NCBI GenBank assembly: GCA_959347315.1
Contig: OY365810.1
Span: 522,001-586,000, forward strand
DNA: 64,000 nt
Direction of reading: 5' to 3'
Source of the DNA: Bimastos eiseni
Taxonomy: Eukaryota > Annelida > Clitellata > Crassiclitellata > Lumbricidae
Shown here one piece after another: positions 1,583 through 38,843 of this stretch. The first letter of the stretch is position 1; each line of letters starts with the position of its first letter. Both the position numbers and the translations under genes were made by a program. The notes under the pieces are model-generated. The model made no database searches, was not told the origin of the DNA, and was given only the letters and a program-made list of their open reading frames with translations.

Positions 1583-1599
1583 TTGAAGCATCTCTCATT

Positions 1600-13700: not shown

Positions 13701-15040
13701 TACGTGCCAAGGATTTAGGTAGCAGGCCTATGCATAAGTACCTCCAGACATCGCTAGCTTTGGAAAACGTTGCTTTCGTTCGAACCTCAGGCGCCATCCA
13801 TAAAATTGTTCCTTTAAACGACATAACCTCCGTATGATGATGTTCTCTGATGCAATCAAAATCCGTTATCTTCAACGTTTTTCCTCTGAACTCATTCGGG
13901 TCGATCGTCTCAGAAATGACAACTGTTTAAAAAATTATTATTTAATCTCTGGGCCCATAGATAAGCTAGAAATTTATCAATAAAAGTCTTATAGATTTAT
14001 GAAATTTGTATAGGCCTAATATCGCAAAAGTTGGTAAATTTTACTAATTTACTTTTTTCTATTTTGGAATTCAAAGGAAATCGTAGATATGTCTTCATCT
14101 GTTTCTGAGTCAGAAACTTTCGATAAAAGCGAGCTAACATTCGACGACATATCAAAATATCATCTGTTTTGTTTGTAATCATTAACTGTGTTTCGTGCTA
14201 TGTAATTAGTCTAGCATAGCCCAGCTGGGCATTATAGATACCATGGGGGTGTATCTTGTTAAGACTTGACTCTGTACATACATGTAGCAGCAATAGTCCT
14301 GACACCAACCATTGTTGATCCTTATTTGTTAATCACAAAGGAAACATTTTTCAGGCGGCCTTAATCAGCGGGACCTTTCGATCCGTAATTGGGTCTTCTT
14401 GGTGATCCGATAACAATTGTAGTAATTGTGTTTTTTCTGATTAGTTCGACTTATAAATAAACCATGATTGATTGATTAATTAATTGCATCACGAATTTAA
14501 TAAACATAACTTTATACTGCAATTAGCACCAACAGCCAAAACTATTTCTTGTTTTGAAAATATTACCGGAACCTACTAGCTGTTGGCTGACTTGAGGTCC
14601 CTTTGGACAATGGAGTTGCTGTGTAGATATGCCATACCACAGGCGACTTGCTTAGCCCAATTCATGACTACATCGATAGGAAGCGGAGATGTAGCTTTCT
14701 TCAAAGCATCCTCCACTGATCCTCCTCTGGCAAACTCCATTATAATGTACATTGCAGCTGGCTTGAAGTTAGCGTCACATGCCGCATGGAAAACCATTAT
14801 TAAGTTTCTGTGATTAAGAGATTTCCACTTGCTGCACGCGTCGATCTCTTTCTGCATTTGACCATCCAACTCACGCTTATTGAACACTCGTCGCTTGATT
14901 GCACATTCTCTACCTTTCCAACGAAATGGACCGTACACTTCACCGAAGCTTCCTTTACCAAGAAATCCGCTCTCTTCAATTATCCTCTTGAACGAAGTCT
15001 CCATGGAAGCGGCATCAAAACTGACGTAAGCCATCTCCAC
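10731..15040 (-). CDS. Kinase B: compact TKL-type kinase, five exons
   Basis: Exons: 14581-15040, 13742-13922, 11637-11740, 11134-11202 and (least certain) 10731-10756. The lengths sum to 840 nt, 279 residues plus stop, with consistent phases 1, 2, 1, 1. Exon 1 has GKGSFGEVYG, CAIKRR and VQRDLKSAN, so HRD reads QRD. Exon 2 has KITDFDCIREH (DFD for DFG) and WMAPEV. Exon 3 begins SYGVLIWAMITRK but is 45 nt shorter than in kinase C, removing about 15 residues around helix G. Exon 4 has NCMNEDTSKRPKF, the conserved C-lobe arginine motif. The exon 1 donor reads A|GCTAGT rather than A|GTAAGT, so splicing needs a GC donor or the gene is damaged. MLK/ZAK-like family; possibly a pseudokinase. Confidence 0.75.
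12226..13260 (-). mobile_element. LINE reverse-transcriptase fragment in intron 2 of kinase B
   Basis: The minus-strand frame 12641-13039 contains DWFPINKSSLNITKTSY, KFLGIQVDQNLSWNDYI and YLSYGNVKWTP. These are the thumb and connection motifs of jockey/CR1-like LINE reverse transcriptases. The frame 12255-12500 adds NPYNTRS and the C-terminal tail. The two are separated by frameshifts and stops, so it is an inactive copy, in the same orientation as the host gene. Confidence 0.85.
13300..13560. repeat. (ATAATG/ATGATG)n simple repeats
   Basis: Two AT-rich stretches of trinucleotide-like repeats (about 13310-13345 and 13487-13552) inside intron 2 of kinase B. Confidence 0.85.
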
Positions 15041-17000
15041 ATTAAATTATGTTTCTAACAGCTGTGTAAATGACCGACATCAACTTCATGCATTAATTTC
15101 GATCTCGATCTTTAGATGTGACCGTCTTCAGTAAGAAATTGATCGAGAATCATTGCATTAGCACACAAGTTGTAAAGTTCTTTCTTTTGGCATCTAAAAA
15201 TACATCAGGAGGCCTAATTCGAATCTTTAATATACTTATTTATTAATGCTTGGATCGAATGATTTCAATTTAAGGCTGCACAGCAGAAAAACTATTCAGT
15301 TTAATTTTGTCTACTATACGTGTAGTAAACTTAGTGCACTTGACGCGTGTGTGGGGTCGCTCTTAAGTTCATTTGAAGTCTCAAGGGTTTTTAATGGGTG
15401 ACGAAGCAAAGAGATGTTGTCAGATGGCGCGAACCTGAAATCGATCGGTTACAGACTAACCACGATACCGAATAGACAAAAATGTCCCACTTACATAACA
15501 GAGTTAGATTAATTGGAATGCCAATTATAATTAATCGATATCATGGTCTCAACGACTTAACATGACAAGGTGCATATTTTAACTAAAATGAGGCAACAAG
15601 AGATGCTAGAGGATAGAGATGTCTAACCTGCTGACGATGTCTTATCCAGGAGCAACGCCATTTTCGGTTTCTTGCGTTACTCTCTGATAGACCTACTTAC
15701 AACCAATCTCAGAGGCTTCGTTGATTCGATTTTAAAGTTAACTTTGACTGGGGTAGGGTAAAGTCGATCTAAATTAATTTATGCGTTTTATTTCGTAGGC
15801 CTACAAGTATGCAGGACAATAGTTTATATTATAGTAGGCCTATATATTTTATGTTTATTATGAAGCGCTTAAAAAGTCCCAACATCACCTTATTGACACT
15901 TTCGAAACTACCTTCATTGCCCAAACTATAATTAGCGACAACAGCGATTTGAGTCTCAATTTATGGATTACTTTGGATTAAACTCCTTAGACGCAAAGTA
16001 TATTGAAAATTGCAAGCGCACCGGAAAGCCTTTAGATCGTAAGCCTAAACCTTAGCCACGCAGAGAAGCAGACTTATTAAATTCTAACAATAAGCACCTA
16101 TTTATAAGCTCCATCTAAGTCGAATAGATCACTTCTGTTATAGAAAAACCTAGAAATTCCCAGCATAATAATTATCATTTGCACTATCTTTAGCGTCGCA
16201 ACATATAGCCTACCTACCTACAAGGTCTACATACTATGTTTAATTGCTATAAATAGAAGTGGGCTTTTTAAAATTTAACTTTCTCATTATGACGTCCACA
16301 TTACGGAATATTAAAATCAAAACTGTAAACCCAATCACGGACAATATTCCTTCCTAATAAATTTTATGTAGCATTAAAACTTTTTAAATGTAACAGCTAG
16401 CAAATATAAGCTGTTAAATATGCTTAAAAAATAAATAGCCTACGATAAAATCAATGTCTTATAGATGTCAGCTATTTAACCTTTGTAATGGGGGAGAACG
16501 GGCGGGGTTAAAGCTCAGATGTACGTACAAGGGGAGAGGGTCCGAAAATACGATTTTGTGCGTACGCAATGTATGGGTGGGCCCTTATCTGGTGAACCGT
16601 TACAAACTGTGAGCTATTCGAATAAACATAAAATGCTTGAAAAAAATGATAAATACATAATTCTTTTCGATTATTACAATAAAATCACAATTATGCAACG
16701 GATGTTCTTTCTTTGGTGGCTAATCTCAGAGCAGATTACAGCTCTGAAATCAGACGTAAGCTAATTAGACAATAGCTAAAAGAACCATGATCCTATGTAT
16801 ACATCGTAATTTCCTATAGGTCTATGTGGCATGCTGTATGCGTTGGCCAAATTGAATGTGTCAGTAATGCATCCACATGCCTACATATCGTACATAATAC
16901 AGTCGTACATTGCCATTAATTGAAGAGAAAACAGTCAAAACAAATCGCTTGTAATTTCGCCAATGTGGTAGACCTATAGTCGGTAATCTCGTATTATAGC
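15041..17000. other. Intergenic, no gene seen
   Basis: AT-rich sequence upstream of kinase B with TAGGCCTA-type words. No exon, RNA gene or bounded element is recognisable. It probably includes the kinase B promoter. Confidence 0.5.
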
Positions 17001-19594: not shown

Positions 19595-20469
19595 TCACTC
19601 CATGGAAAAGATACTGACGAGGTTCTTTTCTGGTCCATACAAAGCCATCAATTGCATCATCTCTTTGAAGAAATGTACTCGATGCACAGCCTTAGGACCA
19701 GAGTCTCCACACTCTAGCAAGACGAGTCGAGAGTCGAAGACTACCATCGGACCATTCTTCACACTACTGCAAGCATAGACCTGATCTTTGTCATCTATGG
19801 CCAGATAGTTAAAACCTTTGAAGTTCACTTCGGCAAGCAGAGCCAGAAGCTTATTCACTTCTTCTGGAACACCGGTAATCGATTGAAACATCGAATCAAA
19901 GCGTGAAATCAACTGTCCTTCTTTCGTAATCTCACACATTCCCCCTAGAACTCCAACATCTTCTTCGTAAGATACAACCAAGTTTCCCTTGGATGTTTCT
20001 ACGGCATGATTCGGTTTTAATATATGACTCGGAAGAATCAAGTGGAGAATTAGCCGGGCATCTGGATGGTAGATTTCAAGACTGGATGGAGCACCTCGTT
20101 TGACCATCACCATACGTCCATCGCTGGTCACTGAGAGAGTGAACGGATCAGCAGCCACAGAATCCAACCATCGATCAACTTTGTTATCAGGCAATGGGAA
20201 GGTAATCTTCCAGACACTAGCTGTGCCCTTATCAGTGATGTAGAGACAATTGGACTCCTTGGAGTATGCTATGTCCATGGGAGTAACGACATCATCGAGA
20301 GACAGTTCTTCACAAGGCTTCATCAAGTCTCTCTCTTCATACACAACGATTGCATTTGGACTCTGACAGAGAAGGCAAATCTTTGCCTGGAGCATTGTAA
20401 CACCAAACGCCTGTCGTTCACCAATTGTAAAGATGTGCTTAACAACAATGCTTCTGAGTTTCCGGAAAA
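19595..20469 (-). CDS. Last exon: NHL-like beta-propeller, stop at 19595
   Basis: About 291 codons from the acceptor TTCTTTTAG to TGA. Repeated blade-like units are visible: TPMDIAYSKESNCLYITDKG, then PFTLSVTSDGRMVMVKRG, HAVETSKGNLVVSYE and FNYLAIDDKDQVYACSS. The alternation of hydrophobic strands with DG/DKD turns and YITD/YACS ends fits a six-bladed NHL/SMP30-like propeller on a single exon. No RING or B-box precedes it, so it is not a TRIM protein. A ligand-sensing or scaffold role is inferred. Confidence 0.65.
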
Positions 20470-23400
20470 CTAAAAGAAAACACAAGACAAACAGAACTAA
20501 TAACTTGGGATCAATTGTTTAGTAAAGAAACAATCAGTGATACCTAGTTATAAAATAAATATATACGTCTGCCCTTCAGTTTTTATCTACTTGATATAAC
20601 AACAACGTATGGTAGCATCTCTGCAGTTTGTTATGTTAACTAGAATAAACACATTCTCAGATAGACAAGAATCCAGCAAACTGAAAACAGAGCAATTAAA
20701 CACTCTATATAGAATCTAAAGGTCATAACAAAAGTTAGTTCCATAAACATCAGCGATGATTAACAATCTATAATCATGTTATGATCTTCTGCTCGATTGT
20801 CATTCGGAGGGTTATTAAACTCTTAAGCTCAAGAGCGCATCTCTCACTAGTAAAGTATTGACATCCTAATCACGTCAAAATAACAGACACATAAGAAACA
20901 CGTGAAATGATGATGATGTCTTAGTGAAATAACACCTTTGTTGTTGCTATAGAGATAAACAAAAGAGATAAATTATAACCTAAATTGAAACTCATTACAT
21001 GAATTTAGGCAATTAAGTGATCTTACCCAAATCTTCCTCGTTATTCTCCAGGTACACATTGCTTATGGCTGGTGCAATATTTCCAGGTAGCAACAGGTTA
21101 AAGAGACCACTCAGTAGGTTCGGTTGTTTCAAGTCTGACAAACTAAGATCTTCAAATGTCTTGAGAGCTGACTTCGATTGACACCAGCACCAGATGACCA
21201 CTCCTCTCTCCTGCTGGGAACTAACGATCTCGATGTTGCCTCTCTTCAGCTGACTCACAAAGCGCCACACTTCCTCGCTCTTTGGAACAGTTTTGTCTTG
21301 CAGCTGATTAAGTTTGTCAACAATTTGCTTTTCTATTTCTTCGAGATTTGACTCAAATGTTACTTTTATCTTCAATACCACTACAGAAAGCAACATACAA
21401 AACAAGAATGAACGGAATTCGATCGCGATTTATACGACATTTGAGTCGATATTCAAGTATATCACAAATAAAAGTATAGACTCAAAGATAAATCGATTCA
21501 AAAATAACAAGTTGAACAGTAAAGTTAGTGAAGTATTAAATAGGTATTTTAAATAAATAAAGTACTATTTACAATAAAATCAAATGCAAAATAAAAAAAA
21601 TGTGTGACAAATTCAAAAAAGACTAAATAATGGAAAGAATAGTATAGTTTAAAAAGCAACTTTAATAAATAATAATGGCAAAATGCAAAGTAAAGAGTCA
21701 GTGATTTTCAACTCTGCTATAGGCCTAACATTGTTGGCTCTTTGGTCATTATTAACCTTCATGTCGTTGCTTGAGTGAAATAACTTTGCCATAAGCAGAC
21801 CGGAAGAGATATGCGCTGACATGGTTAGGTCAATTGTTGGGTAATTTTCGGTGCCAGGTGAGAATCCTTGGATGATAAGTCGGGAGATAGACAGGTGCAT
21901 TCAAGCACAAGGAATACTCACCGCCACCCTTTTCTGCAACATTGGCAACCAGCGTCTGGCCACTCTCGCGCAGTAGCGAAACGAATGTATCATAGTCCTC
22001 TGAAGAGGAATTCCTGATGACGCTCAACATCTCGTCAATCTTCTCACTTTCGTGTTCTAACGTTTTGATGTATCGTGTGTCTTCATCCGATAGGATTTCG
22101 TTGGCATGCAGTTTGTTTATGACACCTTTTGTTCGCATATGTTGGTTGAAGAATTCGGTGTTGTTTCTTAGAATGGCTGCATTAATATCCTCGTCTGTCA
22201 GAGGTTCTGCAATAAATCACTGTTAAACGTAAACCCTTCATTTACTAAATGAAATGCTACAATGATATTCTACCAATGCATTTACGTAAGCTCCTGTTGC
22301 CTTTGATTTTGTGTAGCATACATTTCTTAACCCTCATTAAAACACAATTTCTTAGATCTGATAAGTGTTTAATACATAGGCCTACACGTGGATAGGCCTT
22401 CATCGGCCTACGTATATATTAGAACACATTTAGTTTCCGTGCTTTCTTGCATGCTATTCCTCATCTATGAATTGCGCCACCATCAAGTTTGAGAGACCAT
22501 ACTCCTTAGCTTATTTCATTTTGCAAATGATTGGCAATAATTCAACTTCATTATGACCTGGAACAGTTGACAGTGAGAGGCTTCACAAAATGATTACTTC
22601 AATTTTCTCACTTACCTTCTCCAGGCTTAACAGATCCGGCACCACCTAAAAGTGGAAAACGCAGCATGATGCAAATGGAACACTTTAGAAAAGAAACATC
22701 ATTGCAAGGTTGTCAATAATAGCCTAGGATCATCTAGACGGATCCTCAACATGTTCGATCTTTTCGTTCCCTTCGTTACCTTCCCCAGCATCCTTTCCTC
22801 CAGTACCTTCGTTACCTTCCCCAGCATCCTTTCCTCCAGTACCGTCAGCAGCAGACCCCACATCGAAATATTTGACCAAACCAGCGGTGATCCTATTTTC
22901 AATCAATTTGTAGCAGAACTCTCTGTTCCCCTTCTCTCTCTTTGTTTATAATTCAGATCATACATGTAAGGGTCTCCTGGTTGAGCCTCTATCAATCATT
23001 GTAATGGGCTCTCACGTCCTTACTATTTCCGGAGCACGCAGCCGTTTTCGGCCGTTTTGGCGCAGGATGTTTTGGCGTCGATATCTGATACAATATTGTA
23101 TGTAACACGATGCATGATCGATGATAATAATTATGCTAAACTGAGAACTGGAATGAAGAAAAGAATCATGCCTAAATAGAAGCGGGATGGATAATCTTAT
23201 GAGAGTTCTACTTGTCGTAGAACCCTTTTAGTCCCAATTTTTTTCTCAATCTCGCTTCCAATTAAACGACATTATTTTTTATCAATCCAGCTTCCATTTA
23301 AGCATGATTCTTATCATCAGTACAGCTTCAACTTAAGCATGATTATTTTCATAAATCCAGCTCCCATTTAAGCACGCACGATTCTTTTCCTCTAACCAGC

Positions 23401-26400
23401 TCCCAGTTTAACAGTATCCTTTTCATTGATCCGGCTTCTAGTTTCACATGATTCTTTTCATCAATCCTTCTTCTACTGCAGACGCTCCCGAGGCTTGACC
23501 TGATTTGCCATGTGGCATAATTAACGACACTAAAGTGTAGATTGCCATATAAATTTACAGAATACATAATATACAATATTATTGTATCATAGATCTGCGC
23601 CAAAACGTCCTGCGCCAAAACGTCACGTACCATACTATTTCACACTGACTTTCAACATAGGGACCTTCATCTGGCAACTGAATAACTCTCCTTCATATTA
23701 GCATTTTTATGACAGTGCGTTAAAAAAATTTCATATTCAGTAATCAGGAGTACTAGAAACAACAAACAACAAACTGTTCAAGTTTTCACCTTGTTTCTCT
23801 CTTTCAACATCTTCACCTGGTTCCGTGAGAACACGAAACAGGATATACAACTATAATTATGAACATAATGCAGTAGATTCGCCTGACTCACATTACTTTA
23901 AATAACAGCAATATTTAAAAAATTGATATGGTGATGATGATAATAATTATAATTACATTATAATGATAGTAATATATTCATAGCAATAATATCGAAATAA
24001 AGAACTGATCTTAATCAGGGAACTGACTTTGTGTGCATTAAAACCATTTGTAATCAGTAAAATGGAAGTACTTGAAACAAAAAACTCCAAGTTTTCACCT
24101 TGTTTCTCTCTTTCAACATCTTCATCCGATTCTGTGAGAACACAAAGCAGGACATACAGAAATTGTACACATAACGCAGCAAGCACACATTATATTAAAT
24201 ACCAATAATAATACAATAATAATGGTTATGATGATGATGATGATATAATAATAATAATGATAATAAAAATGATGATAATAATGATAATAATATTAATAAT
24301 AATGTGCTAATAAAATGTCCACTTCTAACATGCCAATACCCAATGTTACTTCATAAGGATCACTATAAGTCCACAAAAAAGCGAAGTCAAAATTCAGATC
24401 AATTTTTAGAATATCAAGTTATACAAGTTGTACTATTTTATTATATGCGGCAATAGTAAGCTAATAAATTAAATACTCCATAACTACATGCAAAGGTGCA
24501 GCGTCTTCTAAACTGAAAACCTACTTCTACCAGTCTACATACCTAAAACTCTTAATGGGTGCCCAGCTTTATTGTGGACTGCTGAACTTTGTAAAGAAGA
24601 CGTTATCAAATTTCAGTTGACCTATCTGCTCCCAGTGATTGAAGAAAGGAAAATACAATACAATATGTAACTAAATTACATAATCAACGTCAGAAACGTT
24701 TTTTGACATGCCAGAAGTCCATTTATTGAGCGAGGAATTGTATATGTGAATGGATCAGTAATACATACGCACTGAATGAGATTTGCTTAGACGTTTTAAA
24801 CTTAGTGGAAAATAGCAACTTACCACTTGCTAACAGAGACCTATATCTGTATATAAATAAGCCTCTTGAAACCTATCTTCCATTTTCTTTGACTCAGATT
24901 CACTTTCGAAAACTCAAAGAGGCGAATCAATATCCACTTGAAACAAATGCAAACCACAATAGTTAGAGTGGCCGCAAATTCACTGCACTTGCCAGAAACC
25001 TATTTGCAACTCTAAATTTGCGAATACTGAGTGCAAGTGCTAGTGCGCATTAGCGCGCGTGTGTGGTACGGATGTCTCGATCTAACCGTTTTGAAAGTAT
25101 AATACAGTTATTATTTCGAATGGCTGCAGAGAGCAAAGACTGCAAGATAATTGTCATTTTGAGATTAACCTTCATTTGAGTCAGTTCCTTTGAATGCAGG
25201 AGCAACATCAACTGCGCAAAGAACACTTTCGATAACCCGAAGAGGTGAATCAATATCTAAGTGAAACAAATGCAAACCACAATAGTCATAGTGGTAGCAA
25301 ATTCACTGCACTTGCCAGAAGCCTATTTGCAACTCTAAATTTGTGAATAAATTTTTATATGTATAATCGTTGGTATACTATTATTGTTGTCCAATCGAGT
25401 TAGCCATAGAGAGTGAACAAGAGTTTTCACTTTCAATGATACTGTCTGCTTGCCTGTATCATTCCTTCGTAGTCAGTGCAAGTGCTTGCGCTCATGAGCG
25501 CGTGTGTGTGGTACGGATGTCTCGATCTAACCGTTTTGAAAGTATAATACAGCTATTATTTCGAATGGCTGCAGAGAGCAAAGGCTGCAAGATAATTGTG
25601 AGTTTGAGATTAACCTTCATTTGAGTCAGTTCCTTTGAATGCAGGTACTTGAGCAACATCAACTGCGTGAAGAAAAAAACAGTCACATTACATAATGCTT
25701 CATTAACATTTGTGAATCTTATTTCTATCAATGCAGGTGGTCTCTCAGAGCTTGAACTCAAAAGGCTGTACCGTATCCAAAACACCTTTGCTCGCACAGT
25801 GCAGCATGTTCCACTGCGAACACGCTTCTCAGCCCTACTCTACCAGCTGCATTGGCTTCCGTTCACTTCAGAATAAAATTTAAATTTGATCTACTATGCC
25901 CCCATCATCAGTATACAGATGTCTATATTCATGCTCTACTAAATCCTTACATCGCTTCTTGTTGACTACGATCATCAAGCACTGGTCTTTCAGCTCAGCC
26001 ACGATGCAGAACAGTTACGGGCTCTCGTGCGTTCCTTGCCTCTGCTGCGAAGGAATAGAATCGACTGCAACTCTCTTTGTAGTTCAAGAAGCAGTTCAAA
26101 ACTTTATTTATCCTTGCATTAATTCCTGGCAACTAACTAGCAGCAACTCAGATTCAGAATCTGCAGCGACCTGCACGTGTTACAAATTAATTAATTAATT
26201 AAATAACAATGATAAAATAATTCTGACAAGAAAATATCAAATTAGGGGAGCGGTAAAATAAAAATTTTAATTTCGCAAGACGTGAAATTCAAATTCAAAT
26301 TAATGTCGAGAGTCAAAGGAGCAAATCCAGTCAGTCCTTACAGCTGAAATTTGTTTATCAGTGGTAACTAATTACGAAAGCATAAAAATCACATCACAAA

Positions 26401-29400
26401 TTTGTTTCCTTTCCGTATCAGTTGTGCAACGAATGCATTGCAGGTGTATCAGAGCGTACAGAGAACAGAACAGGCAATAATGCTCACCGATAAAATGCAC
26501 GCAGCGGTTGAAATGGTAATAAAATAATTAAAGCCAAGAATAAGGTTTGGCTTAAGACATTTTGGACTAATCGGAAAAACTGCAGCGCACAACTTGTCTA
26601 TGGCGACCCATGTAGGCCTAGGCCTATAAGCCTATGAAAGCCTACCTTCCATTTTTTCTGGTTCCTCTTTAATTTCGTCAACCGAACGTGTTGGTGCGAA
26701 TTCTGTGCAAAAGAAGTGCTAACATAATGCTCAATTGTGCTCAAACATTTTTTTTAGCTCTACTTCAAGAGAAACTTCTCCAAGGTGATACTCTAAAATT
26801 CTTGCACGAGTGCGTGTCATGATATCGCTGTACAGTTCATTCTGATCAGTAAAAGACTATCTATTTACAGAAGGTGTTGACTGTTGATCAGTTCATGTGA
26901 CTTTCACTTACTCATTACAGCATATCAAAATAAAACTAAAGTTGTCTTAAAGGCAAATATTATGCAGCTGAAAATGCTAGACCATTTTTGGATCTATTGT
27001 GGTGGGGATAAAAATTAACATGACATGAGCAACACAATGAACAAGATTTCTACATCAACATCTATCAACATCTCCAAATTCGCGTCCATTTAGCATTGTT
27101 GGTCCATTGACGTAACATTGAGACAGCCAAAAATAGTGAAAAGAGTTTCTATTTAGACCAAGATCGGTTTTGAATTTGCAGAAGTACAACTTATGATTTA
27201 TTTTAGAAAGACTTCATGCACTAGTGGGTTGCAAAAAGAATTGCTGTCTGAGTTATTTTGATTGATTGCAAGGTCACTAAAACAGAGCCGAACTTGAAGA
27301 AAGCGTAGCAGATTTATGTAATATTACAATCATATCAACAAAGTTAAAACACGAAATAAAAACAATTGGTCACCTGTAAAATATGCTTCTAAGCGTTTGA
27401 GCTCCTCATCATTCATTGTAATATCTTTCACTGCAGTCTTTTGCAAACGAGTCAACAACTGATTAAACAGTTGTTCTGCAAAGTCCTTGAGTTGACCACT
27501 GGTCAGAAATTCATATAGACGGCATAGTTCTTCCTCTGTTTCACACCAGATGTAGAGAATAATGCTCTGTCCTTTCTTGGCAGCAATTAAATTTACCTGA
27601 ACACGTTCCAATATCCTATTGCTATCCGCTATTGATGTACCACTGAGCGCACTTGTAACTCTTGCTACAATTTCATCTTCTGTATGTTGAACATTTTCTA
27701 AAGGTCCATCGAGATGAGCATGGACTTTCACAACAACTGAAAACAAATAAGCAGTTTAAGGATGGTTAACAGTGTTGACTAAAAGTGTCTTCAAATATCC
27801 ACCGATAAAAAATATATTCAAAAATATATACCAAAGACACTCAATGATACACAAGGAGCAATTTTTACGGCTTATACACGTTATTAGTAATTATTTTTAT
27901 AAGGCGACCTTATATAGTCCAATCAATGCCAAAGAAAAGGGTGCTGCACACGAGGTCAAAAATAAATCACTGATAATTTTATCAGTTGCATGATAGTTTA
28001 AGCGAATTGCCACTAGTGTCTGAATTCCTACAAGGCAGTAGTATGGTTAGAGTAAAATGTGACAGAATTAGCCGTGGGGAGCCCACAACATCAACTCGTA
28101 CCCATTCCATAAACAAGGAGGAGTAGGAACGGTTCTGTCCTGTTTTGTGTCAAATATGTGAAGAGACTTATGATCTCCTCAAGCAGCCAAAGCATGTAGT
28201 AGGCCTTCATCTTCACAATGGTAGGCCTATGTTTATGATCAAAATACTAGGGCAATATTTCGAGGCGTTTTTATGCTCGAGTCACCAAGGCTCAGGCTCT
28301 CGATATTGTTGATTCTTATGTAATTCTAAATCTCAATCCAAAAACGTAACTTCACAAATCCAATTCATTTGTTGAAAAAGCTAAGTTCCTGGTTTAGATT
28401 CTGTCTCAAAATGTCTCAGTAATTTAACCTGGCCCTCTCGAAATTACATTCCTGGATCAGTTAACCATTGATTGACATTTGCCACCAGAGTACTGTTCAG
28501 GGCTGCAAACATGTTCGTTTATTGGATATTTGTTTTTTTGCAAAAAATCAAAAGATACGAAAAATGTCAACCTTTGCTTTTTTGTTTTCACAAATAGTTG
28601 TATTCAATTTACTAATATTACCATTATATTACTAATTGTGTGGTTTTCAATCCGAAATCAAGCTAAATTAATTTCAAAAACGAGTTGTAACCCATTTTCA
28701 TGCTGTGTTTGGTGCTTTTATAACAAAGCTGTTGTGACAAAGTCCAAAGGAAAACAAAACCCCCAAAAACAAATAAAACAAAAAAAACAACTTTAGATTT
28801 TTAAAACAATATTGGTTTTTACACTCCTTGTGCTGTTAGGCAGCTGGCTTAATAAAGAAAATACTTACTTACTCATTGAGATGGCTCGCTAACAAGACTT
28901 TGTCCTTGGGACCCACCTTCAACTTTGCCCTCCTATTGGTATCGACTATTGGATTTGTGGACAACAGAATAAATGATAATATTTTTTATCTTTAATGAGC
29001 AACCCTGTCTGTAATGACAAGCATGAAATAATATAGAAACCGGTTACAAAATTCACAATCAAAAGAGGACAGGGATCCGGAATATTTTAGAACTGAGAGA
29101 AATGAAGATTTCCATGGCTTTATTAAACACAAATATCAAGAAAGTGACTCCACCTCCGCCTGATGCAAACATGTCTGCAATATGACTTTGGTTCGAATGA
29201 CGAAGACAACTAATTGTCTGCTGATAGTGACGTTGGCTGCGTCTTCGCAAAATGTCTAAAAGATCTTCATTTTTTTTGCATGGATTTGTTTCTGTTGAAA
29301 TGACGACTCTCTGTCTACTGCTAATGACCTTTGCTGAACACAGAAGATCAAGCAGAATACTCAAATCTAGTAGATCAATCAAACTATCCTGATTGGTATC

Positions 29401-32400
29401 TATTATTGTCATTTCCTCTTCTGTCAAAGGCCACTCTCCTCCGTATTCTGGATTATATTCTGAAAAAGAATAACCAAAATTTGTAATATTTGTACCTACA
29501 ATTAAATGATCGGTCCCACACACATTTAATGCAAATTCAAATTATTATAACACACAGATCGCTTAAAATGTTAATTGATACACGAACCATTACACTTCAA
29601 AAATGGGTGCTAATTGTTAATTATTAATCAAAATTGTTGATGTTATTATTATCATAATTATTTTCAACCATGAACTTATATCAAATCAATGTCAAGGTAT
29701 TACTGGAGTACGTCAAGTCGTCATCACCCTGTAAAAACATTTATTTAATAAAAAAATCCTGTAAAATATATACCTAATAAGAACAACTGTTTAAATGGAA
29801 ACTGGGTTGGTGAAGAGACTCATACACAAGTAGAAGCTGGACGCGATGACAAAAAATGTGTTTAATTAATGGAAGCTGGACACGATGGAAAGAATTGTGT
29901 TTCAATGGAAGCTGGCAATTATAATGAATGTAGCTGAAACAAAAGAAAACAGTAACACACATTTCCCACAATGGTAAGCAAGGTGTTCACGTACTCCAGT
30001 AATACTTAATGTCAATACAGAAGGCATCACCAGTGGTGCATGAAAACCCATCATCCAAAATCACAAGTATCCAAAATCCAATTGATCAGTCCAATAAGAT
30101 AAAAAAGGCGGCTTATGGTTGACAAGCATTATGGAAAAGGTAAATCATAACGCCTTGGCAACAAGCTGCTTTGGTTTCCCAGTCGCGCTTAGTGCACTCT
30201 CGTCGTTAAAAGTATGAAGCCAGGAATAAAATGATGTAAGCGACTTAGCAATAAAAACTGAAACAGGAAAATAATTTCAAAAACTTGACCCTGCAGTCCT
30301 GCACCAAAAAATTCAATCACCAGAATAATCAAAGAGCGTTAATGAATATTAACCAACACACATTGCAAACATTAGGTCTACTTCTGGTCATTTCAACCAA
30401 AAAAAGCCATCAAAACTTTCAATGTAAGTGGTTTAGATCTATTCAGTTGAGTGGTTAACTTGCACTGATTGAGCACGCAGTTGTGCATGGCATCTTGCTT
30501 CATGTTGTTCAGTCTGATTAGGTCTGTGCATTAGGCAGATCAGTTAAATTTCAGATTCAGGTTTTTTTCCAAATAATTAGATCTCTATAGCTTCTTATCG
30601 GAATATACATTGATTTCATGCAGATTCGACTGCTGTAATTCACTGGAAAAGGAACGCTGGTGGGCTGAAATGCACAGCGATCATTGACTGCTGGTCGGAG
30701 ATTAGGAAACAATACAAATTCAGTGATAGAATATTTCATACACACAATGAAATCTCGAAGTATATTATTGGAATTGTACTTTGCCGTGCCTAATCACACT
30801 AACCTCCATTCCCGTTTATGTAATTGACAACGTGTAGTTGCTCAGTGTCTCGAAGAGCCTCAATAAAACGATCGCCTTGACGTTTCTCCAAAATATAATC
30901 CAACAGCTGAGAGTTCATCGTATAAACAGAACTCTTGGCCTTAACTTCAGAAATTTCTTTCCGAGAAAGAGTTTTGTTTGCAAGTAATTTATCCAGAAGT
31001 CCATAATCGGGTTCTATGCGATCCTCCAGGAAGTCTTTGTGCCGTTCAATTGCTTCATTGATATTGTGTGGTGCTTTATTTTTTTTACTACCACTTGTAG
31101 AAAATAAATGTTTCATCTTCCCAAATATTGAAGGACGGATACGTTTATCTATACGTTTCTCCTTCGGATCTGAGTCACCCTTAACAACCTGTCTGCTTGG
31201 TTTAATTGTTTTGTCCATTGGTTTAATTGATTTTTCTATTATGCCGATGTTATCTGAATCTGGTTCTACCTCCATTTCTTGTACACTTTGCACACTCACA
31301 TTCTGAAAACATAAAATATTGTTTCATTAATGTTGTGATCGTAATCACAGATTTACATGACATCTCTTCACCAAAGACTCATCATAAATGTCGATACTCC
31401 CGATCTAACTATAGAACAAAGGATTGAACCAAATTTATTTATTTATTACCGATATTTGATACCTCCCTTCTTTCAACATTTTTTGCTCAGAAGTACATAC
31501 ACACGCCTCGACGGTGCAATTTCAGTTGTACTGCGGAGGAATTGTGAGTGAAGAACTTGCTTTACGTCCCTACACAGTGAAGGTCCGGACGAGTGTCGAT
31601 CCCGCTCGCTCAGCGCACACTGAACATTACGGGCTGACCACTCTAACCAATCGGCCACTGTACTTATGGAATATTGGTGACGAGTTCAGTCATACCTAAT
31701 GTTCTACAACTGAAGTTACTGCATTATTTGAGTATAATTATTCGGGCTTAGAAGAGTGTGTGGGTTATGTGACCTACTCTGAAAGGCACAAAAAGTCGGA
31801 AATTCAAAGGGCGTATACACAAGATATTAACTTGGAAGGATGAACATATACTTTTCTGAAATGAGGTAATGAGTGTTTGCATTCCTGACGGTTGTATAAT
31901 CACGTGGCTGTAAAAAATTCTTGATTCGGCATCTCTTAATGCCTAACTCCATAAGTGGATTTTACACGTTGACCCACTGTAGTTATCTGAACATGCCTTA
32001 GAATACACTTTAAAATGTTTACACTCGAAATTAGTGCCATATCCAATTTTGCATATGTATTTGGCTGAAATTGCTCAATACCTTGGAGAGCACAACACGT
32101 TTTATCTCGGATAGTAAGCGTTTCAGCTATAATGTAGGCATGTGAAAAATGTTAGTTGAATATTGCCTAAAAATTTAGATATCTGGCGCAAATTGACGAT
32201 TTTTAAAGACAATTACTTGTGTAGCCTGACGTTCAAGATGAGATCTTTGAGTTATGTTTTGAACATCTGTGTGAAAATAATTTCTTACTTATCCTAGGCA
32301 TGCCAGCCTTCTAAGTTAATATCTTGTGTATACGCCGTCTCCAATGCGGTAATAAACTATTTTTGAATTTCTTCCTATTTTTAGTAGTTTCTCAAGCATG

Positions 32401-32555
32401 GACAGTGATATTTGTTGAGACAAATACAAAACGGCTGCATCTTGTGTAAAATTTCGTTCTGTCTTAGTCAAAAGAAATGGACTTACTGAGCTGCTTGTCT
32501 TTGAAACTGTGTCATCCTCTTCTTCTGACAGCTTTTCTGTTTGATCATCTGCCAT
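19595..32555 (-). CDS. CARD/TRADD-N-like/beta-propeller death-fold adaptor, multi-exon
   Basis: Exons: 32487-32555, 30804-31302, 29154-29459, 27374-27736, 26646-26702, 25615-25662, 25170-25211, 24099-24131, 22616-22645, 21922-22206, 21027-21380, 19595-20469. The total is about 986 residues, or 956 without the two VDVA cassettes. The first intron is phase 0; all later ones are phase 1. Every donor is GT and every acceptor AG. Order: acidic N-terminus, basic/proline stretch, CARD, CARD, TRADD-N-like alpha/beta domain, short acidic-glycine linker, CARD, second TRADD-N-like domain, NHL-like beta-propeller to the stop. No NACHT, kinase, TIR or protease domain and no signal peptide or membrane segment was seen, so a cytosolic scaffold is likely. 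CARDs normally recruit caspases or adaptors by homotypic contact; the propeller may sense a ligand. The role in apoptosis or immunity is inferred. Confidence 0.8.
21027..21380 (-). CDS. Exon encoding TRADD-N-like domain 2
   Basis: 118 codons, phase 1-1. It reads VVLKIKVTFESNLEEIEKQI, then RGNIEIVSSQQERGVVIWCW and SALKTFEDLSL. The architecture is the same as exon 4, with the same V-V-K-V opening and a GVVIWCW strand in place of GQSIILYI. The two domains are therefore probably paralogous. In both cases the domain follows a CARD. Confidence 0.5.
21922..22206 (-). CDS. Exon encoding CARD 3
   Basis: 95 codons, phase 1-1, acceptor TTATTGCAG, donor GGCG|GTGAGT. It reads EPLTDEDINAAILRNNTEFF (helix 1), GVINKLHANEILSDEDTRYI (helices 2-3), EKIDEMLSVIRNSSSEDYDT (helix 4 and loop), FVSLLRESGQTLVANVAEKG (helices 5-6). 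The L..L...ILSDED and LLRESGQ..VA signatures are the clearest CARD match of the three. Confidence 0.85.
22616..26702 (-). CDS. Linker region: string of tiny phase 1-1 exons
   Basis: Five spliceable mini-exons lie here: 26646-26702 (EFAPTRSVDEIKEEPEKME), 25615-25662 (VDVAQVPAFKGTDSNE), 25170-25211 (VDVAPAFKGTDSNE), 24099-24131 (ESDEDVEREKQ) and 22616-22645 (GGAGSVKPGE). All are symmetric, so any subset keeps frame. The two VDVA exons arose by a tandem duplication of about 0.4 kb. They encode a flexible acidic/glycine linker between TRADD-N-like domain 1 and CARD 3. Alternative splicing is likely but cannot be shown here. Confidence 0.62.
22731..22968 (-). other. Open frame with 36-bp tandem duplication inside a CARD-gene intron
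   Basis: A minus-strand frame beginning MYDLNYKQREKGNREF and ending HVEDPSR then TGA. Its middle repeats the 12-codon unit GTGGKDAGEGNE; the DNA repeat is 22771-22806 and 22807-22842. Each unit contains a GAAG|GTAACG site that could act as a phase 1 donor, but no good acceptor precedes it. Possibly an unused or alternative linker exon; the opening faintly resembles CARD helix 1. Confidence 0.3.
23053..23625. mobile_element. Foldback/MITE element with GAAGCTGGA minisatellite core
   Basis: The left end (GTTTTGGCGCAGGATGTTTT near 23057) pairs with the inverted right end (CGCCAAAACGTCCTGCGCC near 23597). Both arms continue for about 60 imperfect bases, including ATACAATATT. The interior (23230-23480) is tandem TCAATCCAGCTTCCATTTAA units. 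No coding capacity. It lies in an intron of the CARD gene. Confidence 0.7.
23790..23822 (-). pseudogene. Dead duplicate of the ESDEDVEREKQ mini-exon
   Basis: Nearly identical to exon 24099-24131, with the same donor CAAG|GTGAAAAC, but the acceptor AG has become GG (TCTCACGG). A downstream AG could rescue a shorter version, so use cannot be excluded. Confidence 0.6.
24190..24305. repeat. (ATAATG/ATGATG)n simple repeat
   Basis: AT-rich trinucleotide-like repeat in a CARD-gene intron. Confidence 0.85.
24877..24903 (-). pseudogene. Dead linker mini-exon (ESESKKME)
   Basis: A 27-base phase 1-1 frame aligned with exon 26646-26702 at its 3' end (AAATGGAAG). The donor GT has changed to AT (GGAAG|ATAGG) and the acceptor AG to AA. 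It appears to be a decayed copy. Confidence 0.45.
24914..25670. repeat. Tandem duplication carrying a linker mini-exon
   Basis: Unit 1 (about 24914-25220) and unit 2 (about 25243-25670) share the blocks ATGCAAACCACAATAGT, AATTCACTGCACTTGCCAGA, GGTACGGATGTCTCGATC and the VDVA exon. Unit 2 has about 110 extra bases in the middle. Divergence is low, so the event is fairly recent. Confidence 0.8.
25727..26180 (+). mobile_element. LINE ORF2 C-terminal fragment, antisense in a CARD-gene intron
   Basis: The plus-strand translation LSELELKRLYRIQNTFAR, then LLYQLHWLPF, is the conserved post-reverse-transcriptase tail of CR1/L2-like LINEs (RL..IQN...R ... LHWLPV). Frames shift after position 25875. 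It ends in a TTAATTAATTAA tract at 26188. Confidence 0.75.
27374..27736 (-). CDS. Exon 4: TRADD-N-like domain 1
   Basis: 121 codons, phase 1-1. It opens VVVKVHAHLDGPLEN (beta strand), then has an amphipathic helix, RVQVNLIAAKKGQSIILYIW (two strands), TEEELCRLYEFLTSGQLKDF and EQLFNQLL (helices). The order strand-helix-strand-strand-helix, with a GQSIILYI turn-strand and an exposed helix ending in a F..SG.L pattern, resembles the N-terminal domain of TRADD and related alpha/beta adaptor domains in invertebrate death-fold proteins. The match is by pattern, not by search. Confidence 0.5.
27770..29050 (-). other. Intron of the CARD gene, no feature seen
   Basis: AT-rich sequence between exons 3 and 4. 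Open frames here have no recognisable similarity or splice context. Confidence 0.5.
29154..29459 (-). CDS. Exon 3: CARD 2
   Basis: Acceptor TTTTTCAG|AATATAATCC, donor GGAG|GTGGAG, phase 1-1. The exon reads EYNPEYGGEWPLTEEEM, then LLDLLCSAKVIS, EDLLDILRRRSQRHY and SHIADMF. The spacing follows CARD helices (LLD.L....+S ... LLDIL ... ADM), although helix 1 is unusual, with IIDTNQDSLIDLLDL. Divergent from CARD 1. Confidence 0.72.
29696..30007. mobile_element. hAT-like MITE with GAAGCTGGA repeats
   Basis: The ends GGTATTACTGGAGTACGT and ACGTACTCCAGTAATACT are inverted copies. They are flanked by a perfect 8-bp duplication AATGTCAA (29688-29695 and 30008-30015). The interior holds several ATGGAAGCTGGA units. 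312 bp, non-coding, in the intron between exons 2 and 3 of the CARD gene. Confidence 0.78.
30016..30800 (-). other. Intron of the CARD gene, no feature seen
   Basis: No exon, RNA gene or bounded repeat is recognisable between the MITE and exon 2. Confidence 0.45.
30804..31302 (-). CDS. Exon 2: basic linker and CARD 1
   Basis: The acceptor is TTTTCAG|AATGTG and the donor GGAG|GTTAGT. The first 80 or so residues are charged and disordered-looking (KSIKPMDKTIKPSRQ). The rest matches a CARD: NEAIERHKDFLEDRI (helix 1), DYGLLDKLLANKTLSRKEI (helices 2-3), LLDYILEKRQGDRFIEAL (helices 4-5) and HVVNYI (helix 6). A CARD is a six-helix death-fold domain used for homotypic assembly with caspases and adaptors. 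Confidence 0.8.
31450..31675 (-). repeat. tRNA-derived SINE-like element
   Basis: On the minus strand a box A-like TGGCCGATTGG is followed about 44 bases later by a box B-like GGATCGACAC, the internal RNA polymerase III promoter spacing of tRNA-derived SINEs. The adjoining CTCAGAAGTACATAC stretch is related to sequence near 8280 and 45000, so it belongs to a dispersed family. It is in intron 1 of the CARD gene. Confidence 0.5.
31680..32480 (-). other. Intron 1 of the CARD gene, no feature seen
   Basis: AT-rich sequence without recognisable coding or repeat structure. Confidence 0.45.
32487..32555 (-). CDS. Exon 1 of the CARD gene (start codon)
   Basis: It starts MADDQTEKLSEEEDD and runs 23 codons to the donor CTCA|GTAAGT, phase 0. 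It is acidic and serine-rich, probably disordered. The next exon opens in phase with NVSVQSVQEMEVEP. The end of a foldback element lies 77 bases upstream of the ATG. Confidence 0.7.
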
Positions 32556-34246: not shown

Positions 34247-37200
34247 CTGCAACAAAACGCTTTTTAAGTCCAGTTATTACGGAATAAAAAATCGGAAAAA
34301 ATATTCCATCTCTGAACTCATCTCTTGCAGACTTTACAAGTAAAACTTTCTCAACAATTGCAATTTATTGAATTTTTTTTGTCTTTCATTTTTTCAATTA
34401 GTTTTTTTTCCTTAAAATTAGGCATAACGAAAAAAACTTTAAATATTTATTTTCATTGTCATTCAGCCTGACTGACAGTGAGGAATGATGAGGAATCGAT
34501 GAAAACTTTGATAAGTGAGTGATGTATCATGCATGATGTAAGTTTAGTGCATATTCTAGTAGGCCTACATTGTATTACAGTATACTGTCAATCAGTCGTT
34601 CATTCATACTCAAAAATATAAGATGTACCCCCACTTTGTTCTCGAAGGGCCTGTCTGCAAACTACACTGACCAGCATGGATTTCAATGGAATAAATGTGT
34701 CAAGTGACTATAATATTATGGTACCATTGTCATAGTACAAAAAAGTACCATATTTGCTGGCAAAGAGTTAAATTTTCAAATGCTTACAATGTTGCTGTAA
34801 TGATGAAAGAATGCTATCAAACGTTGGCCGATCTTTTTTTACATAGTTTAAACAGCCTAAAACAAAAACATGCAAAAACATGCAACATATCTTGTCAATT
34901 GTTAGGTAATAATGGAAAACGAAGATTATGTATTACAACCACTTTTGTATGTTGATCAAGAAAATCATCTTCATAATTTCTTGTGATGCATAATTGTTTG
35001 AAGCCGCCTATTTTGTAATATCCTCTAACGTTTTCTGTCTCTTAATGAAATAAGCTCTATTAAACCACACATAACGTTTCTGTGTAGGCACATCTAGTGA
35101 TGCAACTTTTGCATGTTTCGAAGCAAGGACGATGATGCATAATGGCAGCCGTGGCAGGACAGGATATAAGAGCTGTTAAATAATCTAGATCACGTTGATA
35201 TCACTGCTATCAGGTTCATGTATAAAGCCGTGTTTCCTACTCAACCATGCATTTATTGTGCACAATGATGATTCCTTACATAAGAAAATTAATGTCTTAT
35301 CGATGTTGCAACAGTCGTGATATATACCTCTGCATTTGTAGCGAGTATAGTCCTACTGATAAGCCTCATAGATGTAGCATGAATGCACTTATTAAGAGCA
35401 GCAGCAGCAGCAAGGAACGGGTATTGTCTTAAAGTGGCGCAGCTAATAATAGCAATTTCGGCAGAGCAGGTGGATGTGCTGTGTGAAAGTGAGTTCTTTG
35501 TCTAGAGTTACACCAAGATTCATAGCTGACAGAAGATGAGAAAACAGACTGAGGAAACTCAAGGGCGAGGGCTTACATATCGATTTTGGCTAGCTGATGG
35601 CGAGTGCCAAACCAAATGAACTGAGTTTTAGTTAATTCTTCCAGGTACAAATTGACAACAACAACAACAATAATAATAACAAAAGCAGAATTAACAATAA
35701 CAGTAATAGTGACAATAATAACAATCACAATATTAACATTAAAAACAACAATAACAATAATAACAACAACAATAGCAATAACACCACCACCAACATTAAC
35801 ACTATCAATAACAAAAACAATAGCACTGCCAATACCAATATCAATAACAACAACAATAACGATTACAATAACGATTACAATAATAACAATAACAGTAATA
35901 ATAACAATACCGGTAACAACAACAATGACAATAACAACAATAACAATTTATTCTAGGAAGAATTAACTCCCCTGTAGTCAATTTGTCCTAGGAAGAATTA
36001 ATTCCACGGGAGTGTCAATTCACCAACGGGAGTGTGTATGTCCTAGGAACAATGAACTCCACTACTCAATTATTCCTAGGAAGAATTAACTCCACCAGTC
36101 AATGTATTCTAGGATAAATTGACCCGGAAGTGTTTAAAAGGGGGAGTGTATTTGGCTTACTACACCGGCTCATTGCACGGACCGCGGTGGCAGCTGCCGT
36201 GGCTGAACAGTGCTGATACATATGAGCTTGGAGGTTGTCCGCATAGGACTGGCTCAGGACAGCGCCGTCAATTAGCAGAGGACCTACATCTGCAGTGTAA
36301 ATTGTGTACAGGAGAGGGCCTAGGACCGAACCTTGGGGTAGGCCGAATGGAGCGGGGACCCTAGAAGACCTGGTGGACCCATAGATCACAGAGAAGGAAC
36401 GGTCCTGCAGGAAGGAACCGAGCCAACCAAGAAAGGAAAAAAGGTGCGTGAAAGACCAAACGAGGCAGATAGATGCCCAAGGAAGATACCGTGGTCAATG
36501 GTATCGAAAGCAGCGCTGACATCAAACAGCGTCAGAGAGAAACCTGAGACCCATAACATCGTTTACTAGTTAGAGTTCTTGCCGTGTAAATTGGAGAACA
36601 TGAGTAAGAGTCCTTACTGAGTAAAGACACAGTGCAAGACTTTCAAGTAATATATCAGCGCCGCTAACTAATGCATGTCGTAACACACTCACACACACAG
36701 TCACACACCTAGACACACCTATACACACATCTATACACACACCTATAAACACACCTATACACACCTATACACACACCTATACACACACCTATACACACAC
36801 ACACTGTTGACCCTACTTATAAAAATGCATACCAAAATATCTGTGTTTATTTCTGTGTCTGAAGTTAAAGACTCTCTCTAATGTATAACAAGCAACATGG
36901 ATGTGGAATAAGTAGACCTAATAGTCTAGACGCATATACTATGCAGATGTAAGTCAAACTCACCATCTAAAACAGTTCTGATGATGTCTGGACATGAATT
37001 GGGAACATCCAACGTCAATGTCTTATTTAGTATACCTGATGCAATCGCCGGGGCACCATTACCCTTGTAGGGAACTTCTCTTGTTAAGATTTCCCACAGC
37101 ACCACACCATAACTGTCAAACATCAACGAATTAATTATAATAATATGATAATGTTTGTGAAGATCTCTTGAATAGTGAAATTGGACATTTTTATACCATT

Positions 37201-38843
37201 TACAAAGTTATAACTTACTTCGCACATGAAAATTATTGTAGAATCAATGCCAACACTAAAATTATGAGTAGCATCAGACAGGAAAATAAAAAGATTTAAG
37301 CAATCTAAACTTCTTAAGTTGCTTTTGGGCTTCTAACAATAGAAATTCAGTTTTAAAGTGATTAATGATTAATGATTAACACACACACGCACGCACACGC
37401 ATATATCATATAAATATTTATATATAATATAAATATATATGAAATTTTGTAGATATCGGTAACTCTTCTTACCTAACCACATTTCCAATCTCTCGCGCTC
37501 CTGCTTCATGGTATAGAAATCATGGTCGAGTGACTGAATTATCGAATAAGTTCTGTAAATGAAGTGCTTGTTTTAAAGCCAAGTAATCTTCAACCCTTAG
37601 ACAAAATAATCTCGAGGTCCGTCGTGTATTGAGGTAATAAAAGCATTAAATCTGAAATTAACTTACCTTATCTTACTTTACACATGCCTAGTAATTCGAC
37701 TGTCAAGGACAAACTGTCAATGTGAGGTCTATGAATTGCCATAGAACAACTACACAACAGTTGGACAATATTGACTGACCTCCAAACATCACTGGCTTTA
37801 GAAAACAGGCCGGATTCAAGAACTTCTCGAGCCATCCAAGCATATGACCCAACCTTTGTCATAGTAGTTGTATGGTCAGATTCACGTATCTGATCAAAGT
37901 CAATTATCTTCAGTGTCTTTCCACGAGGTTTGGCAGCAGCATCAGCTTCCATTATGATAACTAAAACATAAAAATTAAAGCGTAAATGAAAAGTGTTTTT
38001 CCAGCCTTAAGCTGAAAATGGTTTGCTTTCTCATTTTATCTGAATCTCTGAATATGATGCATCAAGCAATCATGCAATTCTTTTGAGAAGGCCTTCACAG
38101 AGTCTATTTATAAGCCATCTTGAGAAATACGTTATTTATAGAAAATGTTTCAGACATACAGGCATACTCTTCAACGCACTTATCTATTTGATAAGTTCTA
38201 ATGCCACCGTATGCTTCTGTTGCACCTTATCGCAAAAAATGCCAGCAAACGTTCAGGCTTGTCCAATTTGTGAAATCCAATATCCAATAACTGCATAACA
38301 TTTATATGACCTTCACCTTGGCGTGCACACTAGTCTCTCGGTTTCTTCGGTTTCCAAATGTTCTGAAACCCGCTATTGTTCCGGTTGCCTTTGCTATTAT
38401 CTGCCCTCATATCTTTGCCACAGTCATTGTCCCAAGTCAGCAATCTTCACGGAGAGAAACATTCGTTCACATTCTAAACATTCGTTCACATTCTAAACAT
38501 TCGTTCACATTCTAAACATCCGTCACATTCTAAACATTCGTTCACATTCTAAACATTCGTTCACATTCTAAACATTCGTCACATTCGTTCACATTCTAAA
38601 TATTCGTCACATTCTAAACATTCGTTCACATTCTAAATCCTTTTCTGAAATCATGTTCTCAATCATTCCACATATCAGTGATTTGCTTTCAGCGATGTGG
38701 ATTCGTAGTCCTGCAGCTTTCCCTCTTCTATGGTGTAGTTTTACATTTCCATGAATGGATATAATTTCTATACCAATGACACTCAAAAACAGCGCCATCG
38801 ATTGATGCACTCAGCCTTAGACACAGTCGCAATAATAGTGCTG

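Follow-up and report, generated by a model that had tools for sequence, protein, structure and literature searches.

A stretch of the Bimastos eiseni genome (contig OY365810.1, positions 522,001 to 586,000; hereafter the window, 64,000 nucleotides in all) appears to carry one 12-exon gene for a scaffold protein without a recognised NTPase, in which the domains follow the order CARD-CARD-TN1-linker-CARD-TN2-NHL-type propeller, TN1 and TN2 being two TRADD-N-like domains. We consider the chance somewhat better than even that this is a single gene and that it belongs to a family of innate-immune or cell-death sensors which has expanded within the lineage. The window gene is one member of a very large family within its own genome and no singleton. 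It is not a chance arrangement, because its reading frame is kept relative to a segmental copy and its exon order recurs genome-wide.

Gene model and domain content

Rebuilt from the window, the minus-strand exons between positions 32555 and 19595 join into 986 residues and a stop codon (Table 1). All 11 introns of the model are GT-AG, the first in phase 0 and the remaining ten in phase 1. A coding score derived from the codon counts of four kinase exons within the window ranked the model's frame first among the three forward frames in every exon but the 33-nt one (11 of 12). A scan between TN1 and CARD 3 for phase-1 exons of 24-150 nt, at the splice cut-offs used here, returned five candidates; four reproduce linker exons of the model exactly, and the fifth (25211-25170) has a longer acceptor choice. 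A search of the 986-residue model against a protein database gave no match at E ≤ 0.001 among 7987 scored candidates, which we take as a limit of the search and not as absence. Fusion with the neighbouring kinase genes was considered and, for the downstream one, rejected: its kinase open reading frame has Met codons ahead of the kinase match, and the sole kinase match in 13 scanned relative stretches was the downstream kinase exon of the segmental copy.

Table 1. Exons of the predicted gene (window positions; C5 is the contig with the segmental copy, L034 a related locus)
Feature	Position	Strand	Content	Observations
Exon 1	32487..32555	-	start codon, 23 codons	phase-0 donor GTAAGT; copy at C5:453600-453532
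Exon 2	30804..31302	-	N-terminal stretch and CARD 1	Pfam CARD 34.3 bits (cut-off 23.9)
Exon 3	29154..29459	-	CARD 2	phase 1-1; Pfam CARD 34.1 bits
Exon 4	27374..27736	-	TRADD-N-like domain 1 (TN1)	phase 1-1; kin of exon 11; AF2 ferredoxin-like topology
Exon 5	26646..26702	-	linker, 57 nt	phase 1-1; identical in segmental copy; similar 57-nt candidate after L034 TN1
Exon 6	25615..25662	-	linker, 48 nt	phase 1-1; identical in segmental copy
Exon 7	25170..25211	-	42 nt, duplicate of exon 6 (direct repeats)	missing from segmental copy (alignment gap)
Exon 8	24099..24131	-	linker, 33 nt	splice scan; relative at C5:445199-445164
Exon 9	22616..22645	-	linker, 30 nt	segmental copy 96.7% identical, splice sites retained
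Exon 10	21922..22206	-	CARD 3	phase 1-1; Pfam CARD 29.5 bits; 80% identity to L034 CARD 3
Exon 11	21027..21380	-	TRADD-N-like domain 2 (TN2)	phase 1-1; 64% identity to L034 TN2
Exon 12	19595..20469	-	NHL-like propeller and stop codon	family profile A3 matches Thin and TRIM71 NHL propellers

The Pfam CARD family (PF00619) passes its curated cut-off in all three exons claimed to encode CARDs. No Pfam family reached its cut-off in the TN1, TN2 and propeller exons, and their labels therefore required other evidence. The six domain exons gave no Pfam match to NB-ARC or NACHT NTPases or to RING and B-box domains, and membership of the Apaf-1/NLR and TRIM groups, respectively, was rejected on these absences. 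The first-pass annotation had described twelve phase-consistent exons encoding 986 residues, the present domain order and no NTPase; the rebuilt model agrees in length, and the order is supported, as is the lack of an NTPase match in the six domain exons. Its proposed exon-by-exon profile search bore out the CARDs, but not the remaining domains.

Its NHL-like propeller is upheld through relatives and not by the window exon alone, for which no Pfam family reaches cut-off. A profile of six related propellers (A3) matched the TRIM-NHL propeller structures of Thin (the best, E 9.7e-27) and TRIM71 (E 7.8e-26). The NHL family of Pfam was matched at E ≤ 1 by three of these six members, one of them above cut-off, and the relative L014 scored 30.9 bits against a cut-off of 20. 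Sequence comparison thus supports an NHL-type propeller at the family level. A single-sequence AF2 model of the propeller exon reached a pLDDT of 35 and was left out of fold searching.

Since the nearest solved propellers are those of TRIM-NHL proteins, the gene could encode a TRIM-NHL-like regulator with CARDs substituting for the RING and B-box. Its propeller would then bind RNA or a host protein, and its CARDs would serve for oligomerisation only, with no immune signalling. The locus L015+L014, with two CARDs, an open reading frame that looks coiled-coil by eye and a propeller, echoes the TRIM order. We nevertheless regard such a regulator as unlikely in view of the family's very large clustered expansion, since conflict systems expand in this way more typically than developmental regulators do.

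TN1 and TN2 (exons 4 and 11) are mutually related α/β domains. An AF2 model from two sequences, made for TN1 only, has an RRM/ferredoxin-like β-α-β-β-α-β fold (pLDDT 67.7, pTM 0.55). In the 50 rows of a Foldseek search with this model, the TRADD-N chain 1f3v_A ranked eighth, third among natural chains and with the top TMq (0.47), although many ferredoxin-like folds match the model equally well. The main text of Kaur et al. 2021 (PMC8195603) describes a tiny residue followed by Ser in the β2-β3 turn of TRADD-N. In our alignment, five of six TN1-type sequences carry G-x-S in this turn and the sixth carries K-S, and Ser is absent there from all six TN2-type sequences.

Searches at the sequence level were less favourable to a TRADD-N identity. 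For nine TN members, the list of Pfam families at E ≤ 10 comprised seven, none of TRADD type (best, OrfB_IS605, E 4.9e-4). The TN family profile matched one designed protein only in the PDB (E 0.14), and a sequence search with TN1 alone returned nothing informative. NCOA6_TRADD-N (PF13820) had five genomic matches elsewhere and none in the CARD-TN-propeller loci, and hhalign of TN against four genomic NCOA6-type sequences (four of these five hits, one in the wrong frame) stayed within shuffled controls. The TRADD-N label given at first pass therefore stands at the level of fold, through the TN1 model, but was not reached by the sequence-profile tests, and the modest model, the partial motif and the position in the chain suggest a TRADD-N identity with modest strength. 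We give a little under an even chance to a separate ferredoxin-like adaptor family, with the rest of the reading unaffected; such a family would account for the searches without a TRADD-N link and for the tied structural matches. The Foldseek standing of 1f3v_A and the turn motif of the TN1-type sequences speak against it, as does the location between CARD and propeller, which is that of TRADD-N in the main text of Kaur et al.

A large family with a recurrent domain order

Including those of the window, the genome contains at least 101 TN1-like, at least 150 TN2-like and at least 137 propeller matches. The candidates scored were the best 150 of 586 for CARD, 135 of 573 for the propeller, 150 of 250 for TN2 and all 147 for TN1; a few listed matches that hold stop codons were kept in the counts. 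Pieces of two split matches were left out of the propeller counts (4 of 137 for the CARD-propeller count, 2 of 137 for the TN counts). Among the matches listed, 67 of 135 propellers are preceded within 5 kb by a same-strand TN2; one has it downstream and one on the opposite strand (shifted null: mean 1.7, maximum 5 in 500 runs). A TN1 lies within 20 kb upstream of 28 of the 150 listed TN2 domains, downstream of three and opposite to two (shifted null: mean 3.0, maximum 9). At least 23 TN1-TN2-propeller trains were found on five contigs among the matches listed; one train listing additionally took in four propellers found only in individually fetched loci. When the best 150 of 586 CARDs are considered, 36 of 101 TN1 domains are preceded within 5 kb by a same-strand CARD, and none has one downstream or opposite. 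Both the expansion and the CARD-first order were seen in one genome, that of the window.

The direct CARD-propeller association is weaker than the TN figures. With the same best 150 of 586 CARDs, a same-strand CARD precedes 10 of 133 propellers within 5 kb, while one propeller has a CARD downstream and none has one opposite; within 15 kb the counts are 15, six and one (shifted null: mean 3.1, maximum 9).

The relative at L034 (contig C7) has CARD, CARD, TN1, CARD 3 and TN2 upstream, on the same strand, of a propeller 61% identical to that of the window. Its N-terminal module is more diverged (44, 39 and 32% identity) than CARD 3 and TN2 (80 and 64%). Phase-1 donor candidates accompany all five of its domain exons and phase-1 acceptor candidates four of five; no acceptor candidate of CARD 3 passed the splice cut-offs, and the CARD 1 acceptor candidates are in phase 1, compared with phase 0 in the window. 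Other loci are partial or irregular. L033 (contig C9) has CARD 3-TN2 before a 64% identical propeller, with no N-terminal module in the 6 kb upstream of CARD 3. In L016+L031 and L028+L032, CARD-CARD-TN1 is followed by roughly 11 and 8 kb, respectively, that contain no propeller. In L022+L023, TN2 is followed by five CARD exons and a propeller, and the stretches L009-L012, L017 and L021 contain CARD exons without a TN or propeller match.

Selective constraint and the extent of the gene

The segmental copy (C5:436-454.6k) is 92-96% identical, lies 100 kb away and keeps the reading frame without a stop. Its exons differ by one in-frame 3-nt indel and by no frame-breaking indels, with 8.9 expected from introns (Poisson P = 1.4e-4). 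It lacks exon 7 within a larger gap, and GT-AG is conserved at the aligned exons, leaving aside the absent exon 7 and exon 8, which this alignment paired with a neighbouring repeat and not with its better match at C5:445199-445164. It is possibly an assembly haplotig, and the dN/dS figures presuppose a true duplicate; the family is real even if it is a haplotig, because third and more distant copies exist. Between the two copies, dN/dS was 0.73 over 972 codons. By module it was 1.6 for CARD2+TN1, indicating no amino-acid constraint, and 0.37 for CARD3+TN2+propeller, which is constrained (Fisher p = 0.03 on rounded counts; CARD 1 was omitted because a gap truncated its blastn piece to 26 codons). 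This module difference is also compatible with two genes. The overall ratio is what a decaying or non-functional duplicate might give, but such decay is very improbable given the intact frame and given that dN of CARD3+TN2+propeller is lower than the divergence of the introns (P = 2.9e-5).

A less probable reading, which we would put well below an even chance, is a pair of neighbouring genes that have often duplicated as a unit, one for CARD-CARD-TN1, possibly with a short tail, and the other for CARD-TN2-NHL propeller. Each module also occurs without the other, both in the loci examined and in the match lists, which show no TN1 in the 25 kb upstream of 44 of the 67 TN2-propeller pairs. The unequal constraint and the greater divergence of the N-terminal module on C7 fit two genes as well, and the TN1-CARD 3 gap of 5.2 kb is the longest between adjacent domain exons. 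Two separate genes would not, however, readily explain the excess of TN1 upstream of TN2, or the phase-1 linker exon candidates after TN1, one of which resembles a 57-nt candidate on contig C7 (8 of 19 residues; 5 of 20000 shuffles). A single gene is the likelier alternative and is supported by the same domain order and similar linker candidate at L034. The joining of the exons into one transcript, predicted from genomic sequence, is made much more likely by these relatives, which are not proof of it.

Proposed function and comparison with known systems

As a single protein, the scaffold would bind a ligand through its propeller. This ligand could be a molecule that is foreign or damaged, or else a host protein reporting such a molecule. 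Ligand-driven clustering, and not a nucleotide switch, would bring the CARDs together, and these could seed a homotypic CARD assembly, to which a caspase or kinase adaptor would be recruited. TN1 and TN2 may act as bridges that separate the flanking domains at rest or bind a partner, by analogy with what Kaur et al. propose in their main text for TRADD-N. A caspase- or inflammasome-like platform, as first suggested, is a plausible putative role.

A bolder and rather doubtful possibility is an NTPase-free receptor class of inflammasome-like size and variety, in which more than 100 NHL-type propeller sensors would gate CARD filaments via two distinct, previously undescribed ferredoxin-like adaptor families, TN1 and TN2, with CARD-TN1 diverging fast and CARD3-TN2-propeller conserved. 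If true, this would be the reverse of the layout with constant signalling and variable sensor parts. If the single-gene reading is right, NHL-type propellers, and not NACHT/LRR or Apaf-1-like NTPases, are the basis on which a very large CARD receptor repertoire arose in an animal lineage. Two questions would then become testable: whether clustering of the propellers is enough to license CARD assembly, and whether the missing switch lies in the TRADD-N-like domains. Related copies are numerous enough to give the sequence depth that structure prediction and tests of selection require.

Apaf-1 joins a CARD to a sensor-like propeller in one chain, as does the window gene, which has several CARDs, an NHL-type in place of a WD40 propeller and no NTPase match in its six domain exons. 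TRIM-NHL proteins (Thin, TRIM71, TRIM2/3, Brat) share the propeller family, and L015+L014 has a coiled-coil-like exon ahead of the propeller; in the window gene, however, CARD exons occupy the N-terminal place and the six domain exons have no RING/B-box match. TRADD differs in that the window gene has no Death domain match, no sequence link to it was found, and TN2 is without the turn serine.

The first-pass annotation had not recognised this domain order in any described protein. The exact combination of CARD, TRADD-N and NHL was likewise recognised in no paper surveyed by title and abstract (a legend in PMC8242945 names CARD and NHL among other domains), but the general scheme is in print. 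According to the main text of Kaur et al. 2021 (PMC8195603), in which the word NHL is absent, proteins with a Death-fold domain, TRADD-N and a variable C-terminus, β-propellers included, are expanded in marine invertebrates, among them DED, TRADD-N and WD40 propeller proteins in amphioxus and proteins with one to three Death-like copies in Amphimedon; TRADD-N tends towards a single copy. Compared with the class as described there, the window family has CARDs, an NHL-type propeller and two distinct TN subfamilies. It appears to share the N-terminal Death-superfamily domains followed by a TRADD-N(-like) domain, linker and β-propeller, as well as the large lineage-specific expansions. The window gene is best read as a member of a lineage-expanded, NTPase-free sensor or scaffold family, with a putative mechanism, akin to the Death-fold, TRADD-N and propeller proteins of Kaur et al.

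Gene model and exon modules

The 986-residue protein proposed in the first-pass annotation was reproduced from twelve minus-strand exons, and its consistent splice phases hold, with intron 1 in phase 0 and the next ten in phase 1, which makes every exon from 3 to 11 a symmetrical 1-1 unit. In 11 of 12 exons the frame of the model has the highest codon score of the three forward ones. A profile search of the six domain exons placed all three claimed CARD exons above the Pfam CARD cut-off, and a Pfam search of the TRADD-N-like exons 4 (TN1) and 11 (TN2) found no family at cut-off. The latter two are mutually related (BLASTP E-value 1e-5 in one comparison; phmmer 8e-5; hhalign of their family profiles 92.6%). 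Linker exons are directly duplicated with their flanks (90-94% identity), and thus linker length changes via exon duplication.

The propeller exon alone matched no Pfam family and, among PDB sequences, nothing credible (best E-value 0.45, a designed protein). The NHL-like propeller claimed earlier was supported instead by a family profile of this exon and five relatives from the same genome, which matches solved TRIM-NHL propellers (Drosophila Thin, 9.7e-27; TRIM71, 7.8e-26) as well as those of TRIM3, TRIM2 and Brat. One relative exceeds the Pfam NHL cut-off (30.9 versus 20 bits). The window propeller is divergent (19-24% identity to four distant relatives in the alignment), its predicted model has a pLDDT of 35, and the NHL-type assignment rests on the family profile.

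Features of the window and related loci
Feature	Location	Strand	Remark
Protein-kinase exon array	window 1118-1594, 14576-15046, 37668-38006, 41552-42031, 60361-60930	minus	Same strand as CARD gene; solved kinases best matching one exon include MLK-type MAP3Ks and Src/Abl-like kinases; downstream exon also in segmental copy
Duplicated linker exons	window 24901-25645, 23779-24158		One absent from segmental copy
Long repeat	window 56808-59029		Probable minisatellite; several frames are open, with MSERPMIERP-like peptides
Retrotransposon-like frame	window 36099-36494	minus	Only one of the two with a reverse-transcriptase match, below cut-off
Retrotransposon-like frame	window 12641-13084	minus	
Segmental copy	C5:436-454.6k		Whole locus
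Third copy	C5:675.8-710k		
CARD-CARD-TN1-propeller	L026+L030		Variant order
CARD-CARD-partial CARD-TN2-propeller	L025+L024		Variant order
CARD-CARD-coiled-coil-like-propeller	L015+L014		Variant order
TN2, five CARDs, propeller	L022+L023		Irregular order
Coiled-coil-like exon (by eye), L014	C5:10888654-10889091		Between CARD pair and propeller, in the position of TN in other loci
Similar exon, sister locus L009	C5:10793970-10794551		Followed by retroelement-like open frames

Recurrence and copies in the genome

Genome matches, counted as lower bounds and including the window's own exons where listed, numbered at least 150 for CARD, 137 for the propeller, 101 TN1-like and 150 TN2-like. Among the matches listed, the TN1-like and TN2-like sets share no exon; 36 of 101 TN1-like exons are preceded on the same strand by a CARD at most 5 kb away (downstream 0, opposite 0), and 31 are followed by a propeller within 20 kb (upstream 7, opposite 2). 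Of the 135 propellers listed, 67 have a same-strand TN2-like exon no more than 5 kb upstream (downstream 1, opposite 1), against a mean of 1.7 and a maximum of 5 in 500 shifted null runs. The listed matches form 23 TN1-TN2-propeller trains on five contigs (C5, C7, C9, C13 and C17) and 44 further TN2-propeller pairs with no listed TN1 within 25 kb upstream.

The segmental copy is 92-96% identical by piece, with 3.8% intron divergence. Its exons differ by a single 3-nt indel and contain no stop codons (frame-breaking indels 0 versus 8.9 expected, P = 1.4e-4); a 42-nt duplicate exon is missing inside a larger gap. The third copy retains propeller (91%), TN2 (90%), TN1 (60%) and two CARD exons. 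On C7, a propeller 61% identical follows CARD-CARD-TN1-CARD-TN2 on the same strand (44, 39, 32, 80 and 64% identity, respectively).

A splice scan of the C7 copy, run blind to the window exons, gave three exon candidates, one of which (57 nt) aligns to the 57-nt window exon 5 at 8 of 19 residues, a level reached in 5 of 20,000 shuffles. Separate units, with no frame running past TN1, would fit the N-terminal and propeller modules also found apart and the C7 CARD1 acceptor candidates, which are phase 1 versus phase 0 in the window; the exon 5-like candidate after TN1 argues against them and, at the sequence level, favours a reading frame continuing beyond TN1.

Selection and relation to known architectures

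Between the two closest copies, with CARD1 left out of both sums, CARD2+TN1 gave a dN of 0.058 and dS of 0.036 (ratio 1.6), and CARD3+TN2+propeller 0.017 and 0.046 (0.37), a modest gap (Fisher p = 0.03). The latter module is strongly constrained relative to intron divergence (P = 2.9e-5), and the trend recurs in the third (TN1 60% versus TN2 90%) and C7 copies. Thus, as judged from these coding comparisons, the propeller end is the conserved end here, unlike a quickly changing recognition surface.

The propeller may act as a sensor and the CARDs as the assembling part, with TN domains as bridges or locks and clustering in place of a nucleotide switch. Kaur et al. 2021 (PMC8195603) described expansions combining Death-like domains, TRADD-N and a variable C-terminus, including amphioxus DED-TRADD-N-linker-WD40 and 357 Amphimedon proteins, with 1-3 Death-like domains in most architectures; they proposed that TRADD-N keeps the domains on either side inactive as long as no signal has rearranged it, and that propellers possibly recognise invader molecules. 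Their amphioxus proteins carry DED and WD40, whereas the predicted window gene carries CARDs and an NHL-type propeller. Since the main text of that paper does not mention NHL, and a literature search found no paper recognisable as describing CARD+TRADD-N+NHL proteins, the CARD, TN and NHL-type propeller combination would be a new form of the already described Death-like plus TRADD-N scheme.
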